Of a DNA stretch of 57,786 nucleotides, positions 14,443-20,259 are shown piece by piece (position 1 is the first letter of the stretch; every line of letters begins with the position of its first letter). The translations under genes and the position numbers were made by a program. Under the pieces are notes generated by a model that was given only the letters and a program-made list of their open reading frames with translations, had not been told where the DNA came from and ran no database searches. This DNA is from Flavobacteriaceae bacterium. Lineage in GTDB: Bacteria > Bacteroidota > Bacteroidia > Flavobacteriales > Flavobacteriaceae. Where the stretch lies: NCBI GenBank assembly GCA_017851655.1, contig JAFMMH010000004.1, positions 1-57,786 of the forward strand. The letters are read 5' to 3'.

Positions 14443-14883
14443 ATGAAAGACAGACGTTCATTTTTAAAAACAGCCTGCAAGCCAATTGTTTTAGCAACCC
14501 TTGGAATTCCAATTCTAGAAGCATGTAGTTCAGAAAATGATGAATCCTACGATTATGGAAGTTCAGGTAGTACCACTAGTACTCTTCCATCTACTGATCC
14601 CCTTGTTATTGATATCTCATCCGAGAGCTTTAAAGAGCTTCAGGTTGTGGGTGGCTGGATAAACAATACTTCGAATAACATTTTGTTAGTAAGAATTAGT
14701 AATTCAGAGATTCGTGTTTTTGACAATAAGTGTCCACATCAAGGAAATAGAAATAAATGGTCTTATGATGGCAATAATTTTGAATGTGGATATCACGGAA
14801 ATTCTTTTTCGGACAACTGTTCTGGTGCATTGACTTGTTATGATTCTAGTCTAGAAGGAAATATACTCACAATTACATTCTAG
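14443..14883 (+). CDS. Tat-exported Rieske [2Fe-2S] lipoprotein
   Basis: The 146-aa protein carries a twin-arginine start (DRRSFLK, residues 3-9) and a lipobox ending in Cys28 (ILEAC), so it is probably folded with its cluster, exported by Tat and lipidated. A Ser/Thr/Gly linker (about 35-50) leads to a small Rieske domain with ligands Cys97 and His99 (CPHQG) and Cys115 and His118 (CGYHG). It is likely a periplasmic electron carrier, but no oxidase, reductase or cytochrome gene is next to it. Single plus-strand gene; its TAG interlocks with the stop of the next, convergent gene. Confidence 0.85.
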   Translation: MKDRRSFLKTACKPIVLATLGIPILEACSSENDESYDYGSSGSTTSTLPSTDPLVIDISSESFKELQVVGGWINNTSNNILLVRISNSEIRVFDNKCPHQGNRNKWSYDGNNFECGYHGNSFSDNCSGALTCYDSSLEGNILTITF

Positions 14884-16134: not shown

Positions 16135-18546
16135 TCAATATTTTAAAACAAGTTGAAGTTGAACTGAGCGCCCAATTTCAGCTGCATAATATCGTAATCT
16201 ATTTAAGTAGTCATTGTAGGTTGTATTGGTTAAATTCAATACGATTAGTCTTATCGTACTTTTAAAACTAGTTTGGTTTGTTAAAGGTAATGAAAAATAA
16301 ATATCTAAGTTATGATACCCAGTAGGTGGAGTACTTACATCTAATTGTTTTTGAATTATTGTCCCTGACTCAATAAGATTTACACTAAAATTTGTGTCAG
16401 GAAATCGATTTTGAGTTCCTGTAAAACGATGTGACAACAAAATTTCAATATTCTTTTTTGAGAAAGTATAGGCCATCTGCTGATTAAAAGCAAATGGAGG
16501 AACTAATATTAGGGGTTCATTTTTTGTAAGATCTTGGGCGTAGGTGTAAGCAGCATTAAACGTATACTCTAAATCTTGAGCAAACTGAATTTCCCCAAAA
16601 ACATCCCATCCCCACATAAAAACCTTCGTCGAGTTGTACGACCATACAGGAAAAGCACCCCTTGTAGTTTGCTCTACCCCAGTAGGTTCAATATAAATAA
16701 AATTAGAAACTGAATTTAAATAAGAATCTATCCCAAAACTTAATCTAGTATTTTCTTTTTTAAAACCGAGGAGTACTTTATGAGACGTCTCTTTATCAAG
16801 GGTAAGATTTCCATACTCAATGGTTGCAAGTGAATGGTGTAATCCATCACTGAAAAGCTCTGATACATTGGGTGCGCGCTGGGTGAGAATATATGAAAGA
16901 GTTGTTTTATCTGAATCACTTAAACGAATTGCTATTCCAGTCTGTGCACTAATATTTAAAAAATTTAACTTTGGATTAACCAACAACTGTGTTCCAAAAT
17001 TTTTTTGTTCGTAATCCGAATACATAAGATTGTAACCCCTTTCAATCCAGTCCTCAGTATCATAGAATTTTTGGGCATCCATAAAAACTTTGTCAAAACG
17101 CAATCCCCATTCCCAATTAAAAATATTGGACGGCTTATAATTTCCAGTGATAAAGCTTCCTATTTGATACTTGAGATAATCAGGAATGAGTCTTTTTACT
17201 CCAGTTTCGGGATTCGAAAAATTATCTTGAAGCAAGCCGTTTAGACCCCATTCAAACTCCCAATCAAATCCATTCCTCCACTTGATACTTCCCAGAAAAT
17301 CGTGTGTCTGTAGGGTTAGGTCAATTGCGGGGAGTTCTGATCGATTTGCCCTACGAACATCGAACTCTTTTCGAGAATTGATTTGGTAATTATAATCTAT
17401 TCGAATTAATGATTGATCCGAAATTTGATTAAAATAGCTTGCCTGTAAGCTTTGGTGTAATGCTTGCTGTTTAGGTGCCTCTATTGCATAATCAAATGGT
17501 TCTACTCTAAGGGGAATTTCTGATTCAACAGCACGCAATAAATCTTGAATATTCCCGATGTGGGCAGAACGTAAGATACCGGTCTCGTTTTGAAAACGAG
17601 TGTATTTCAATTGCCAACCTTTTAAAATTCTCGAACGACCAAAGGTAAACCCCAAACTAGACTCTTTTAAAGCTGTATTTGTCAAGAAGTAATCTGGAGC
17701 TTGACGATCGCCAAAATACTTGGTTGCTAACTGACCTGAAAAATAGAAACCGTTGTCATACGATTTGGTCAATCGACTACTTAGACCCCCTCCTTTTCCG
17801 TTATCGACCCCATTGAGGATAGTATTTCCATAGAGACTGTCTTTTAATCTGATTCGTTGAGGAGAAAGCACAATCATCCCCCCTGAAGCATCCCCTCCGT
17901 ATTTTAGTGCTGCTGCACCTTTGACTACTTGCACACTCTCAAATCCATTTAGATCAATGTTGGGAGCGTGGTCTGCACCCCACTCCTGATCTTGTAATCT
18001 CATCCCATTTGCAATGATTGCAACTCGACTTCCATATAGTCCATGAATCATTGGTTTTGCAATGGAATTTCCTGTTTTTAGAGCAGATACTCCGGGTAAA
18101 ACATTCAGGGTTTCTGCCAAACTTTGATTACTCATTCTAGCCAACTGGTCCGCATTCATTTGAGACTCACTGACACTAGTATTTACCTGGGTAATCCCAT
18201 TTTCAATAAGGATAATTTCTTCGAGTTCGTTGATATGATGCTCTAAAGCAAAACTCAATTCTACATCTGACTCAATGGTCAAGCTTCTTTCGACAGGATT
18301 ACATTGAATGTGTGAAACAATAATTTGGACGGAACCTTCACAAATACCAGTAAGTTCAAAATAACCTTCTTTATTCGTTTGCCCATAAAAGTCAGTTCCT
18401 TTAATTTCGACAACAGCACCAAAAATTGGCTCCCCATCATGCAAATCCTTTACGATACCTAGGATACGAAAATCACAAGTTTGACCGTGAATAATTGAAG
18501 TGAGGAGCAAAATAAAAAATAAGACTAACCGCTTAATGATGTTCAA
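16135..18546 (-). CDS. TonB-dependent receptor, ZnuD-like (probable metal uptake)
   Basis: The 803-aa protein has a signal peptide (to about SIIHGQ), a carboxypeptidase-like domain (about 25-110), a plug (LNVLPGVSALKTGNSIAKPM) and a beta-barrel. The plug motif LQDQEWGADHAPNIDLNGFE is typical of receptors related to ZnuD and iron-complex receptors. Together with the lipoprotein and His-rich protein just upstream, it suggests uptake of zinc or another transition metal; this is inference. The start is TTG at 18546. The closest upstream ATG (18557) is out of frame and stops at once. It lies 14 bp after the lipoprotein stop. Confidence 0.85.
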   Translation of the reverse strand: MNIIKRLVLFFILLLTSIIHGQTCDFRILGIVKDLHDGEPIFGAVVEIKGTDFYGQTNKEGYFELTGICEGSVQIIVSHIQCNPVERSLTIESDVELSFALEHHINELEEIILIENGITQVNTSVSESQMNADQLARMSNQSLAETLNVLPGVSALKTGNSIAKPMIHGLYGSRVAIIANGMRLQDQEWGADHAPNIDLNGFESVQVVKGAAALKYGGDASGGMIVLSPQRIRLKDSLYGNTILNGVDNGKGGGLSSRLTKSYDNGFYFSGQLATKYFGDRQAPDYFLTNTALKESSLGFTFGRSRILKGWQLKYTRFQNETGILRSAHIGNIQDLLRAVESEIPLRVEPFDYAIEAPKQQALHQSLQASYFNQISDQSLIRIDYNYQINSRKEFDVRRANRSELPAIDLTLQTHDFLGSIKWRNGFDWEFEWGLNGLLQDNFSNPETGVKRLIPDYLKYQIGSFITGNYKPSNIFNWEWGLRFDKVFMDAQKFYDTEDWIERGYNLMYSDYEQKNFGTQLLVNPKLNFLNISAQTGIAIRLSDSDKTTLSYILTQRAPNVSELFSDGLHHSLATIEYGNLTLDKETSHKVLLGFKKENTRLSFGIDSYLNSVSNFIYIEPTGVEQTTRGAFPVWSYNSTKVFMWGWDVFGEIQFAQDLEYTFNAAYTYAQDLTKNEPLILVPPFAFNQQMAYTFSKKNIEILLSHRFTGTQNRFPDTNFSVNLIESGTIIQKQLDVSTPPTGYHNLDIYFSLPLTNQTSFKSTIRLIVLNLTNTTYNDYLNRLRYYAAEIGRSVQLQLVLKY

Positions 18547-18560
18547 AATAATTACATGAT

Positions 18561-19106
18561 TTAATCTTTAACAAGGATAGAAAAATCAACTTCTACGTCT
18601 GTTTCGCCTCCAAAGCCATTTCTGTCTGAACTATTTTTTTGAATCGGTTCATGAATTAAATAAACTCTTACTGCTCCGCTTCCAGGACTTGAAGTAGACC
18701 AAAGACTATTTATATATAAAGGGTTTTGATTAGTATCCAATACATCCGAAACAGCTTGACCAAATTCGATGGGTACGCCAGAGAACTCAAAAAATACTTG
18801 ATGCTCGTCTGCTTCCATTTTCACCTCAGTTGTAATATCTTCAACGTCAGTAGGGTCACTTTCATCTAAAAAAGAAACTGCCACTTCATACTCGCTGTTA
18901 GAATTTAATGTAATGGTAGGATTTTCGTTTAATTGAGTGGTCCAACGAACTTGTTGATCTTCTTCGCCATCACTAGTAAAAGTTAGGATAACCGAGGTAA
19001 TTAATTCTTGCTCATCTACAAGTTCTGGATCTGTTTTTGTGCAAGAGAATACAGTTGTTAATATTAATATTGATGCAATATGCATCATTGATATGTTTAC
19101 TTTCAT
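18561..19106 (-). CDS. Small lipoprotein paired with TonB receptor
   Basis: This 181-aa lipoprotein has a lipobox ending at Cys22 (TTVFSCTK). The mature part is acidic and beta-rich, with LITSVILTFTSDGEEDQQVRW, a Glu/Asp/Thr stretch around DITTEVKMEADEHQVFFEFSG, and VRVYLIHEP. It resembles the roughly 180-aa lipoproteins that databases label 'type 1 periplasmic binding fold' and that sit next to metal-related TonB receptors in flavobacteria; I recall this from family knowledge and did not search it. EADEHQ and the acidic patches are possible metal ligands. Its stop is 14 bp before the receptor start. Confidence 0.75.
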   Translation of the reverse strand: MKVNISMMHIASILILTTVFSCTKTDPELVDEQELITSVILTFTSDGEEDQQVRWTTQLNENPTITLNSNSEYEVAVSFLDESDPTDVEDITTEVKMEADEHQVFFEFSGVPIEFGQAVSDVLDTNQNPLYINSLWSTSSPGSGAVRVYLIHEPIQKNSSDRNGFGGETDVEVDFSILVKD

Positions 19107-19177
19107 TAGAATATAATTATTGATTTTAACATGTCATCCCTAGTAAGAGATAGACTCTGAATTAGGTTTTGATAAAA

Positions 19178-19513
19178 TCAACAATTAGGAGGTCCTCTTG
19201 TCGAGGAAAAAAGGAGTTCTGATTTGTATAGTGAAAAACGATAATCTGCAGATTTTTTTCTGAAAATCAGCGGGGTATCTATATCAAATGATTTTGATTG
19301 AGATTCAGCTAAAACGTGAAAATAATAATCCAAAACATCATTGTGCAAACTGCTAGCATGGATATGTGTTGTACTATGTTTACATTCATTTTGAATAGTA
19401 TGAAACTCATAAGCATGGATTAGCTTGAGTCCAGAAGGAACAAGAAAGAAAAAAACCAATCCAAAAGCATAGATTTTATAAATAAGGGGCAATATGCTTT
19501 TTTGAAAATTCAA
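19178..19513 (-). CDS. Short His-rich membrane/exported protein ending in RGPP
   Basis: The 111-aa protein has one long hydrophobic segment (residues about 10-28, KIYAFGLVFFFLVPSGL), then a histidine/cysteine-rich stretch (HAYEFH, ECKHSTTHIHASSLHND, YYFH) that looks metal-binding. It ends with STRGPPNC. A C-terminal RGPP or RAPP motif recurs in small proteins beside metal receptors, including the DUF2946 type. The only start is TTG at 19513 (two rarer ATA codons precede it), 2 bp after the stop of the DUF1080 gene. It probably works with the lipoprotein and receptor downstream. Confidence 0.65.
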   Translation of the reverse strand: MNFQKSILPLIYKIYAFGLVFFFLVPSGLKLIHAYEFHTIQNECKHSTTHIHASSLHNDVLDYYFHVLAESQSKSFDIDTPLIFRKKSADYRFSLYKSELLFSSTRGPPNC

Positions 19514-19515
19514 TA

Positions 19516-20259
19516 TTATAGCTTTCTGATTTTGATATTTCTATATGAAATGATACCGGGATGATCTTGAAGGCAAAGATGTCCCTCTTTGTATTTCCCA
19601 AATCCTTCCATGTCGGAAAACTTACTGTTTTCTACCAAATTATCCCATTCAGGTCCATGAAGTGGAAAACGGTTAATTTCTTCACCGTTATGGACAACTG
19701 TGCCCACATTGGCTTCTTGATTTATTGTGATGTGATAAGTATTCCAATCCCCTGCTGCTTTTGCCATAACACGGTCTGGAGCTATCATATCATAAAGTGC
19801 AGCAGTTGTATGAATCTGATTTTTAGGATCGTCTCCATAGATTTCAGCATCGATAATTTGAATTTCGGGCCCCGTTAAATATGGATGATCGTATTTTGAA
19901 TCCTCACTCACTCCCCACATAAATCCGCTGTTAGAGTTGGGAGAAAGTTTCCAATCAAACTTTATTTCAAAGCTGCTATATTTCTCATCCGTAATTAAAC
20001 TTTTATTACCATTCCCTTCTGCCATTTCAGAATTGTATGTAAAAACTCCCTCTGAAACAGACCAACCTGTCTTCTCACCCGATTCATTTTGATAAATGTG
20101 CCATCCCTCCAGTGAATTTGAATTACTCAGGTTAATCCAATCTTCTGATTTAATCTCAGTAGACTCTGGGGTTTTTTCTTGTTGTTTTTTTTGTGAGTTT
20201 TGACAACTAAGAAGTAAAAATGCAATGCTAAATGTAGTGAACAGGAATCTTGTTTTCAT
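19516..20259 (-). CDS. DUF1080 lipoprotein (3-keto-disaccharide hydrolase-like)
   Basis: The 247-aa lipoprotein (lipobox LLLSC at Cys19) has the DUF1080 concanavalin-like beta-sandwich. Recognisable parts are WHIYQNESGEKTGWSVSEGVF, FEIKFDWKLSPNSNSGFMWG, the region around DHPYLTGPEIQIID, and the C-terminal LCLQDHPGIISYRNIKIRKL. Members act on glycans, and some are linked to 3-keto-sugar hydrolysis. It sits between the CoA-transferase genes (62 bp upstream) and the RGPP gene (2 bp downstream), with no other sugar gene beside it. A TACTTTTA sequence in the 62-bp gap could be a weak promoter. Confidence 0.85.
   Translation of the reverse strand: MKTRFLFTTFSIAFLLLSCQNSQKKQQEKTPESTEIKSEDWINLSNSNSLEGWHIYQNESGEKTGWSVSEGVFTYNSEMAEGNGNKSLITDEKYSSFEIKFDWKLSPNSNSGFMWGVSEDSKYDHPYLTGPEIQIIDAEIYGDDPKNQIHTTAALYDMIAPDRVMAKAAGDWNTYHITINQEANVGTVVHNGEEINRFPLHGPEWDNLVENSKFSDMEGFGKYKEGHLCLQDHPGIISYRNIKIRKL

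Follow-up and report, generated by a model that had tools for sequence, protein, structure and literature searches.

What does a small membrane protein ending in RGPP do beside a lipoprotein and a TonB-dependent receptor? The question is raised by a locus in a 57,786-nucleotide stretch of DNA from a Flavobacteriaceae bacterium (hereafter the window; assembly GCA_017851655.1, contig JAFMMH010000004.1), in which an earlier note had seen a three-part system for metal capture at the cell surface. The open reading frame (ORF) listing of the window confirmed three adjoining ORFs on the minus strand, in the place and with the sequence features which that note had given. In this study, we provide evidence that the small protein is quite probably an arrest peptide, encoded by an upstream ORF (the leader) that would control the lipoprotein-receptor pair via ribosome arrest and an mRNA hairpin, whatever the metal. 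The locus was compared with those of the family Flavobacteriaceae (199 genomes), those of the class Bacteroidia (295 genomes) and 80 loci of named genomes; the leader alignment has 88 rows and omits the family loci L087 (longer tail) and L096 (no leader found). The features under discussion are the following.

19178..19513, minus strand: leader ORF, the arrest-peptide candidate, 111 aa, TTG start, ending STRGPPNC; a leader stands at the equivalent place in 89 of 90 family loci.
19316..19417, minus strand: putative sensor segment, leader residues 33-66 (H33, H38, C44, H46, H50, H52, H57, H66), with His/Cys columns kept across 88 relatives.
19187..19198, minus strand: arrest motif codons AGA GGA CCT CCT (R106 G107 P108 P109), assigned from the motif columns in 88 relatives and the published arrest activity of RGPP (PMC12992588).
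19173..19187, minus strand: 5' arm of the 15-bp main stem of the hairpin (last base of Pro109, Asn110, Cys111, stop codon and next bases), assigned by covariation.
19114..19128, minus strand: 3' arm of the hairpin, -22 to -8 relative to the lipoprotein ATG, assigned by covariation.
18561..19106, minus strand: lipoprotein, 181 aa, with H102 and H152 invariant (85/85) and a predicted model of mostly beta strands.
16135..18546, minus strand: TonB-dependent receptor, ZnuD-like, 803 aa, with the motif EWGADHAP; D192-H193 of the plug and H570 of the barrel are aligned with zinc ligands of ZnuD, and an N-terminal CarbopepD domain precedes them.

The earlier note held the role of small RGPP/RAPP proteins to be undescribed, a statement now outdated by work on CruR of Bordetella pertussis (PMC9426467) and by a survey of RAPP-like motifs (PMC12992588). 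RGPP/RAPP is a proven ribosome-arrest motif, with RGPP the strongest of the RAPP-like motifs in several contexts in Escherichia coli and Bacillus subtilis systems; mutagenesis of motif position 2 found A and G fully tolerated and P, S and D partly, and the Arg was irreplaceable in three mutated peptides (PMC12992588). R[GAP]PP is present in 81 of the 88 leaders, a natural variation at position 2 that fits the published tolerance, and the motif types are RGPP (37), RAPP (28), RPPP (16), KPPP (3), KAPP (3) and NKPP (1). Judged by its sequence, the window leader has the features of RAPP/RGPP arrest peptides, being a small membrane protein with a C-terminal motif (RGPP two residues before the C terminus), encoded directly upstream of a receptor/lipoprotein gene; by analogy with the published peptides, it would arrest the ribosome.

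Is the leader a constant companion of the receptor? The receptor was found once per genome in 96 of the 199 family genomes (E <= 1e-60), and 90 of these loci were analysed, the other six lying at short contig ends. In 66 loci, an initial scan detected an upstream ORF with R[AGSD]PP and a short tail at its end, and inspection of the remaining 24 revealed an ORF of the same type ending in RPPP, KPPP, KAPP or NKPP in all except L096. Counting these K/N variants and L087, with its 11-residue tail, the leader is thus present in 89 of 90 loci and the lipoprotein in 86, so that the co-occurrence of the three genes, on which the earlier note had made its proposal depend, is borne out. A leader ending in R[GAP]PP was recovered in 81 of 90 loci, whereas only 4 of the 1249 remaining ORFs with a length of 70-200 codons in these loci have such an end, and the leader-receptor association is therefore not due to chance. 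Among the other TonB-receptor loci of the window's genome, none of the 8 examined (of 20 plug matches) had such an ORF in the stretch covered. The receptor was also found in 113 of the 295 class genomes (E <= 1e-50), and the leader search covered 68 loci from these genomes (40 of them picked by hand from the list of matches), 67 of which gave a receptor match (L164 none); a leader was identified in 51 of these 67 analysable loci, although some of these leaders, at distances of up to 800 nt from the next start, may be misassigned. In the named-genome set, 79 of 80 loci have the leader, including all of the 69 that are not near-identical to the first set. In all three sets the leader stands directly upstream of the receptor or lipoprotein gene, the lipoprotein gene following the receptor in 75 family loci (one of these placements, at offset -2968, is implausible), preceding it as in the window in 11 and not being found in 4. 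Leader length from stop to stop is about 95-145 codons, with L054 (195) and L087 (175) as outliers.

Four loci (L050, L056, L087 and L098) have extra ORFs ending in R[GAP]PP. In two relatives of the window genome, L170 and L171, the leader-lipoprotein gap is 324 and 394 nt, as compared with 70-74 nt in L167-L169. In addition, L054 has a further leader-like ORF with His/Cys of the CxxC subtype, 129 codons long, about 3.0 kb after the receptor start and with the Pro-rich ending NKPPPLSQWDRLFL, thus more than one gene per genome may be controlled in this way.

How would an arrested ribosome act upon the next gene? Folding of the junctions revealed long stems that pair the codons just after the motif with the bases just before the next start, and the stem sequences differ between genera. 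For a covariation test, each 5' arm was paired with the 3' arms of other loci, drawing on loci with 0-110 nt from leader to next start in the family (79 of 88) and 0-160 nt in the class (45 of 51) and named sets (63 of 69). The matched arms of the 79 family loci had a mean of -7.92 kcal/mol versus -4.08 for permuted arms, the lowest of 10,000 permutations reaching -5.08. With P as the first base of the P-site proline codon, the signal was limited to P+0 to P+30 against about -24 to the start codon, and was strongest at -21 to -3, with z down to -16; off-target windows in the family gave z of 0 to -2 upstream of the motif and |z| <= 1 inside the next gene, except -3.3 at +36. The covariation recurred in the named set, in 63 loci without a near-identical counterpart in the first set (z -13.6), and in the 45 class loci (z -4.5 to -5.3), and |z| was at most 1.2 in the control junctions, i.e. 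previous gene-leader (n=29), receptor-lipoprotein (n=62) and 5' arm-second gene (n=74). The test is conservative, since related sequences share arms, which improves the permuted pairings.

When the stall footprint, taken as P-12 to P+15, was masked, the unpaired probability of the start region rose by 0.076, and by 0.019 when shuffled footprints were used instead (p 4.5e-8 by Wilcoxon test, 79 loci, relatedness uncorrected). In 42 of 86 loci, stall site and start codon are 48-60 nt apart, which would leave room for a stalled and an initiating ribosome together. In the window, the two arms listed above form a main stem of 15 bp whose last base lies at -8 relative to the lipoprotein ATG; the 5' arm pairs better with this 3' arm than with that of any other of the 79 loci, and is predicted to lie largely under a ribosome stalled at RGPP. 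Because one arm is at the stall site and the other before the start, and because the arms covary, arrest should open the downstream start. A stem joining the stall site to the next initiation region, as in SecM-type control, is thus present as a family trend. Since the ribosomes of Bacteroidia fail to recognise Shine-Dalgarno sequences (PMC9976891), the 3' arm would have to block initiation by structure as such. With regard to a possible role as intrinsic terminators, the example stems are mostly A+U-rich and adjoin the start codon.

The leader itself is a drifting protein with a few fixed points. Mean column identity is 19%, and the conserved columns are the two Pro (88/88 and 87/88) and the Arg (81/88) of the motif, a His/Cys cluster (Cys 86/88, His 82/88) and a few hydrophobic positions. 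The ligand pattern of the main subtype is H-x(3-4)-H-x-H-x2-C ... TH-x-H ... C (Cys 66/67, His 64/67, His 63/66) and that of the other subtype H-x3-H ... CxxC, the CxxC (columns 58 and 61) being present in about 50 of the 88 leaders. The window leader lacks CxxC and has C44-K-H46, and it keeps H..H, C and TH-x-H; the second Cys, kept in 86 of 88 relatives, is Asn in the window and one other, and five relatives in the named set share this Asn. With 7 His and just 2 Cys (C44 and C111), the protein is His-rich and not Cys-rich, thus only the first half of its earlier description as His/Cys-rich stands. On family average, His and Cys make up 27% of the sensor segment versus 3.7% of what follows. 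The distance from ligands to motif has a median of 51 aa (5-95% range 50-57, n=87), and the stretch from the last ligand column to the motif has hardly any conserved residue and a nearly fixed length; about 51 residues is roughly the distance from the peptidyl-transferase centre to just past the exit tunnel. Within their first 64 aa, 95% of the 88 relatives have a hydrophobic stretch of 19 residues (mean hydropathy >1.6), in agreement with the membrane segment previously noticed. Since the sequence drifts except for motif, ligands and spacing, and since a covarying mRNA hairpin is tied to the arrest site, we regard the leader as a regulator rather than the component of a surface capture system for which it had been taken.

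No Pfam or NCBIfam family was found for the window leader, DUF5014 alone appearing at E 0.076, below the cut-off; DUF2946 (PF11162) gave no match to it at E up to 1, and 4 of 88 relatives matched weakly (best E 0.0074). Other family matches of the leaders, among them single weak ones to CzcI (E 0.02) and CbtB (E 0.0085) and five to LIC10965 (best E 0.006), were not used. TTG or GTG are the only start codons before the membrane segment in 25 of the 88 leaders, 2 more having no start by the rule used, and TTG is also the sole candidate start in L010, of the same genus as the window; weak initiation of the arrest peptide may be selected for.

Which metal would such a switch answer to? The receptor of the window has CarbopepD, plug and barrel domains, and its best match in the Protein Data Bank (PDB) is ZnuD of Neisseria meningitidis (4rdr; PMC4557270), whether judged by sequence, by profile (E 6.6e-29, with OprC second) or by fold (E 3.2e-35, with the heme receptor PhuR and the copper transporter OprC after it; predicted model pLDDT 90), thus the likeness to ZnuD noticed earlier holds. 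D192-H193 in EWGADHAP and H570 in GLHH align with Asp-99, His-100 and His-499, three of the four zinc ligands of ZnuD (an offset of 14 between paper and chain numbering was inferred and is consistent at both sites), and the fourth, Glu-340, falls outside the aligned stretches. Among the receptor relatives, from which L026 was omitted for its in-frame stop, all 89 have His at position 193 and either Glu (77) or Asp (12) at position 192, and 85 of the 89 have His at position 570. Conserved His or Cys residues occur in all three proteins of the unit, in support of the earlier metal reading. The N-terminal CarbopepD domain has C24, C69, H79, C82 and H103 (87/89 each) and H104 (85/89); these Cys/His residues possibly form a site of periplasmic metal hand-over.

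The resemblance to ZnuD makes zinc the likeliest metal, and we give it about an even chance; copper comes next. Against zinc, the heme-receptor model TIGR01785 is the top NCBIfam score of the receptor, at 112.9 bits below its cut-off of 316.85, and flanking-ORF clustering, judged by eye, yielded no zinc or copper gene among the recurrent neighbours of the 90 family and 80 named loci, thus the metal assignment rests on receptor similarity. The receptor reached none of the NCBIfam cut-offs for ZnuD, copper and heme models, scoring 77.2 versus 950 bits for the ZnuD model NF038289. Copper, or else heme or another metal, under the same regulatory logic and compatible with arrest-controlled initiation, is a reasonable possibility that we put somewhat short of even: CruR and CutF sense copper (PMC9426467, PMC9973294), OprC ranks second among the profile matches and is one of the top fold matches, CxxC is common among the leaders, and the leading NCBIfam model is one for heme. 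On the other side stand the alignment of the plug D/E-H pair and the GLHH His with ZnuD ligands, the Asp that OprC entries, mutants included, have at the place of His193, and the different family of the copper receptor CrtA, which is usually followed by PepSY genes.

On this basis, a scheme can be proposed in which the N-terminal hydrophobic segment would take the nascent chain to the membrane, and the ribosome would stall once the RGPP codons reach the peptidyl-transferase centre. During the stall, the His/Cys segment, some 50-75 residues back, would lie just outside the exit tunnel or be emerging through the translocon. With metal scarce, the stall would persist, the ribosome covering the 5' arm and leaving the start site open, and lipoprotein and receptor would be made. 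With ample metal, binding to the ligands would fold or pull the chain and relieve the arrest, the ribosome would leave, the hairpin would re-form and expression would drop. We infer relief by metal, the identity of the metal and the direction of control, and place expression at metal scarcity and closure upon binding, because the target is an uptake receptor. The scheme joins the direction of CruR with the hairpins of SecM, the Alteromonas secDF2 leader and CutF.

Several observations weigh against this proposal. Not every locus has a clear hairpin. Of the 79 pairs of matched arms, 13 do not reach -3 kcal/mol, and leaders of the RPPP subtype have a mean of -6.0 versus -8.9 for RGPP. In only 20 of the 79 loci does the 5' arm pair best with the 3' arm of its own locus, and in 37 that arm is among the top five. 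Off-target windows in the class set reach z -2.3, and the fold of the window region has only a modest advantage over shuffles (z -2.06), 6 of 200 of which fold as well. K[AP]PP ends 6 of the 88 leaders and 9 of 79 in the named set, and NKPP ends 1 of the 88, despite the irreplaceable Arg of the published peptides. In the class, 16 of 67 loci have no such ORF within the stretch examined (L151 has nearly no upstream sequence), and the family locus L096 has none either. Finally, the scheme assumes that a hairpin at -21 to -3 blocks initiation without Shine-Dalgarno recognition.

Arrest could alternatively be read out as in CruR, metal binding freeing the ribosomes so that Rho ends transcription before the receptor gene, with the hairpin serving as an element of mRNA stability or pausing. 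CruR does head a TonB-receptor operon and acts via RAPP and Rho, over an intergenic region of 162 nt (PMC9426467). The 48-60 nt between stall and start found in about half of the loci here are far shorter, and a covarying hairpin that links stall site to start codon fits control of initiation, thus we consider a Rho-dependent switch unlikely. Still less credible, and in our view very improbable, is a reading in which the leader is a stable protein, anchored in the membrane, that binds metal as one subunit of a system for capture at the cell surface. The conserved His/Cys cluster, the membrane segment and the constant partnering with receptor and lipoprotein would suit such a subunit; however, the stretch between ligands and RGPP is hardly conserved yet nearly fixed in length, and neither Pro-Pro next to the stop codon nor the hairpin would have a role in it.

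The leader proposed here as an arrest peptide resembles several known regulators, each in part. Like it, CruR (bp2923, DUF2946) is a small exported leader with a RAPP end, first in a TonB-receptor operon, with a metal-ligand motif upstream of the arrest motif and a spacing between the two that matters (PMC9426467). CruR differs in its DUF2946 domain and CXXC, the leaders here having a ligand set whose main pattern is not CXXC alone; in its receptor CrtA with PepSY, where a ZnuD-like receptor with a lipoprotein is found here; and in a long intergenic region with Rho termination in place of hairpin coupling. CruR homologs have been reported from Proteobacteria and a few Planctomycetes, Firmicutes and Deinococcus, and the synteny section of that paper names no Bacteroidota (PMC9426467). 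Our leaders belong to the same class as the RAPP/RGPP upstream ORFs, small secretory ORFs with a C-terminal motif before TonB-receptor genes, stated to be universal in Gram-negative bacteria; for Bacteroidota, the accessible survey text names no receptor type, sensor spacing or mRNA structure, and the terms 'stem-loop', 'hairpin' and 'secondary structure' are absent from it (PMC12992588). CutF of Rhodobacter capsulatus likewise senses metal as a nascent exported chain and is coupled to a stem-loop that precedes the following gene, but it answers copper excess, drives a detoxifying oxidase and has another proline motif; 19% of CutF-like proteins (40% normalised) come from Bacteroidota, with TonB-like proteins as frequent neighbours, and for other CutF-like genes the accessible text gives intergenic lengths and no hairpin analysis (PMC9973294). 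In SecM-secA and in the RAPP-family leader before secDF2 of Alteromonas, ribosome arrest breaks up a stem-loop that hides the start region of the following gene (PMC10987492), as proposed here; those leaders, however, monitor protein export and mask a Shine-Dalgarno sequence, which the present clade ignores. The receptor shares with ZnuD of N. meningitidis an acidic-His pair in the plug and a barrel His at aligned positions, and differs by the CarbopepD domain, whose conserved Cys/His lie outside the aligned part. A search of the open-access literature (subscription papers and preprints lay outside its scope) found no account of the receptor unit, the ligand pattern or the covarying hairpin. 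What appears to be new here is the covarying hairpin together with the ZnuD-type unit, RGPP leaders before TonB receptors being already known.

It is conceivable, and we hold it tentatively, that outer-membrane zinc uptake in Bacteroidia is set class-wide by a nascent chain that senses zinc on leaving the ribosome or entering the periplasm, an RGPP stall at zinc scarcity and a hairpin over the start, with no dedicated DNA-binding regulator. If so, the arrest peptide would be one that senses zinc, where those in the literature covered here respond to copper, small molecules or export activity, and the start site under its control would have no Shine-Dalgarno sequence to hide. Many proteins without a family might then be sensors that act only during their own synthesis, and the metal supplied by the receptor family would be directly testable with simple reporters. 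To our knowledge, little is known of the control of outer-membrane metal uptake in Bacteroidota, be it in sea, soil or gut. For a group that lacks Shine-Dalgarno initiation, the hairpin evidence offers a specific mechanism of coupling, and the signature of motif, about 51 residues of spacing, one arm from P+5 and the other near start-20 can be used to search for more such switches.

As to the control of the unit at the DNA level, the Zur/Fur box suggested by the earlier note was not found: perfect inverted repeats (arm 7, spacer <= 3) occur in the 130 nt before the leader in 7 of 88 loci versus 9.2 expected, a crude scan that lets degenerate boxes escape and depends on leader starts set by rule, and the repeats have no visible common feature. 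TAnnTTTG, which we take to be the flavobacterial promoter element, is enriched in the same 130 nt (38 of 88 loci versus 14.5 expected), thus in many loci a transcript begins with the leader. The window leader starts 2 nt after a DUF1080 gene (19516-20259), which the range of the earlier note also took in, and is not certain to head its operon; the DUF1080 gene adjoins the unit in only 2 of 90 family and 4 of 80 named loci, and is therefore not part of it.

The lipoprotein model is confident (mean pLDDT 91) and has no PDB match at E <= 1e-3 (best 2.2e-3), and the window protein matches no Pfam or NCBIfam family. Of its 85 relatives, 52 do match the NCBIfam model of the Mfa1 fimbria subunit (E <= 0.01, best 3.7e-7), as the window protein does not; these matches may or may not reflect more than a shared lipoprotein start. 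Recurrent neighbours beyond the unit in the 90 and 80 loci, recognised by eye only, are serC, serA, a LolD-like ATPase, ferredoxin, folE and msrA, of which folE, near 17 of the 90, was not counted as evidence. Just before the unit in 42 of 90 family loci stand two conserved genes, one for a lipoprotein-like protein with YNYFIYFQRKYNQRLGPF at its end, the other for a small membrane protein that starts with MEKLKERWGI. In the window, an ORF with a Rieske iron-sulfur domain (14443-14883, plus strand) faces the locus.

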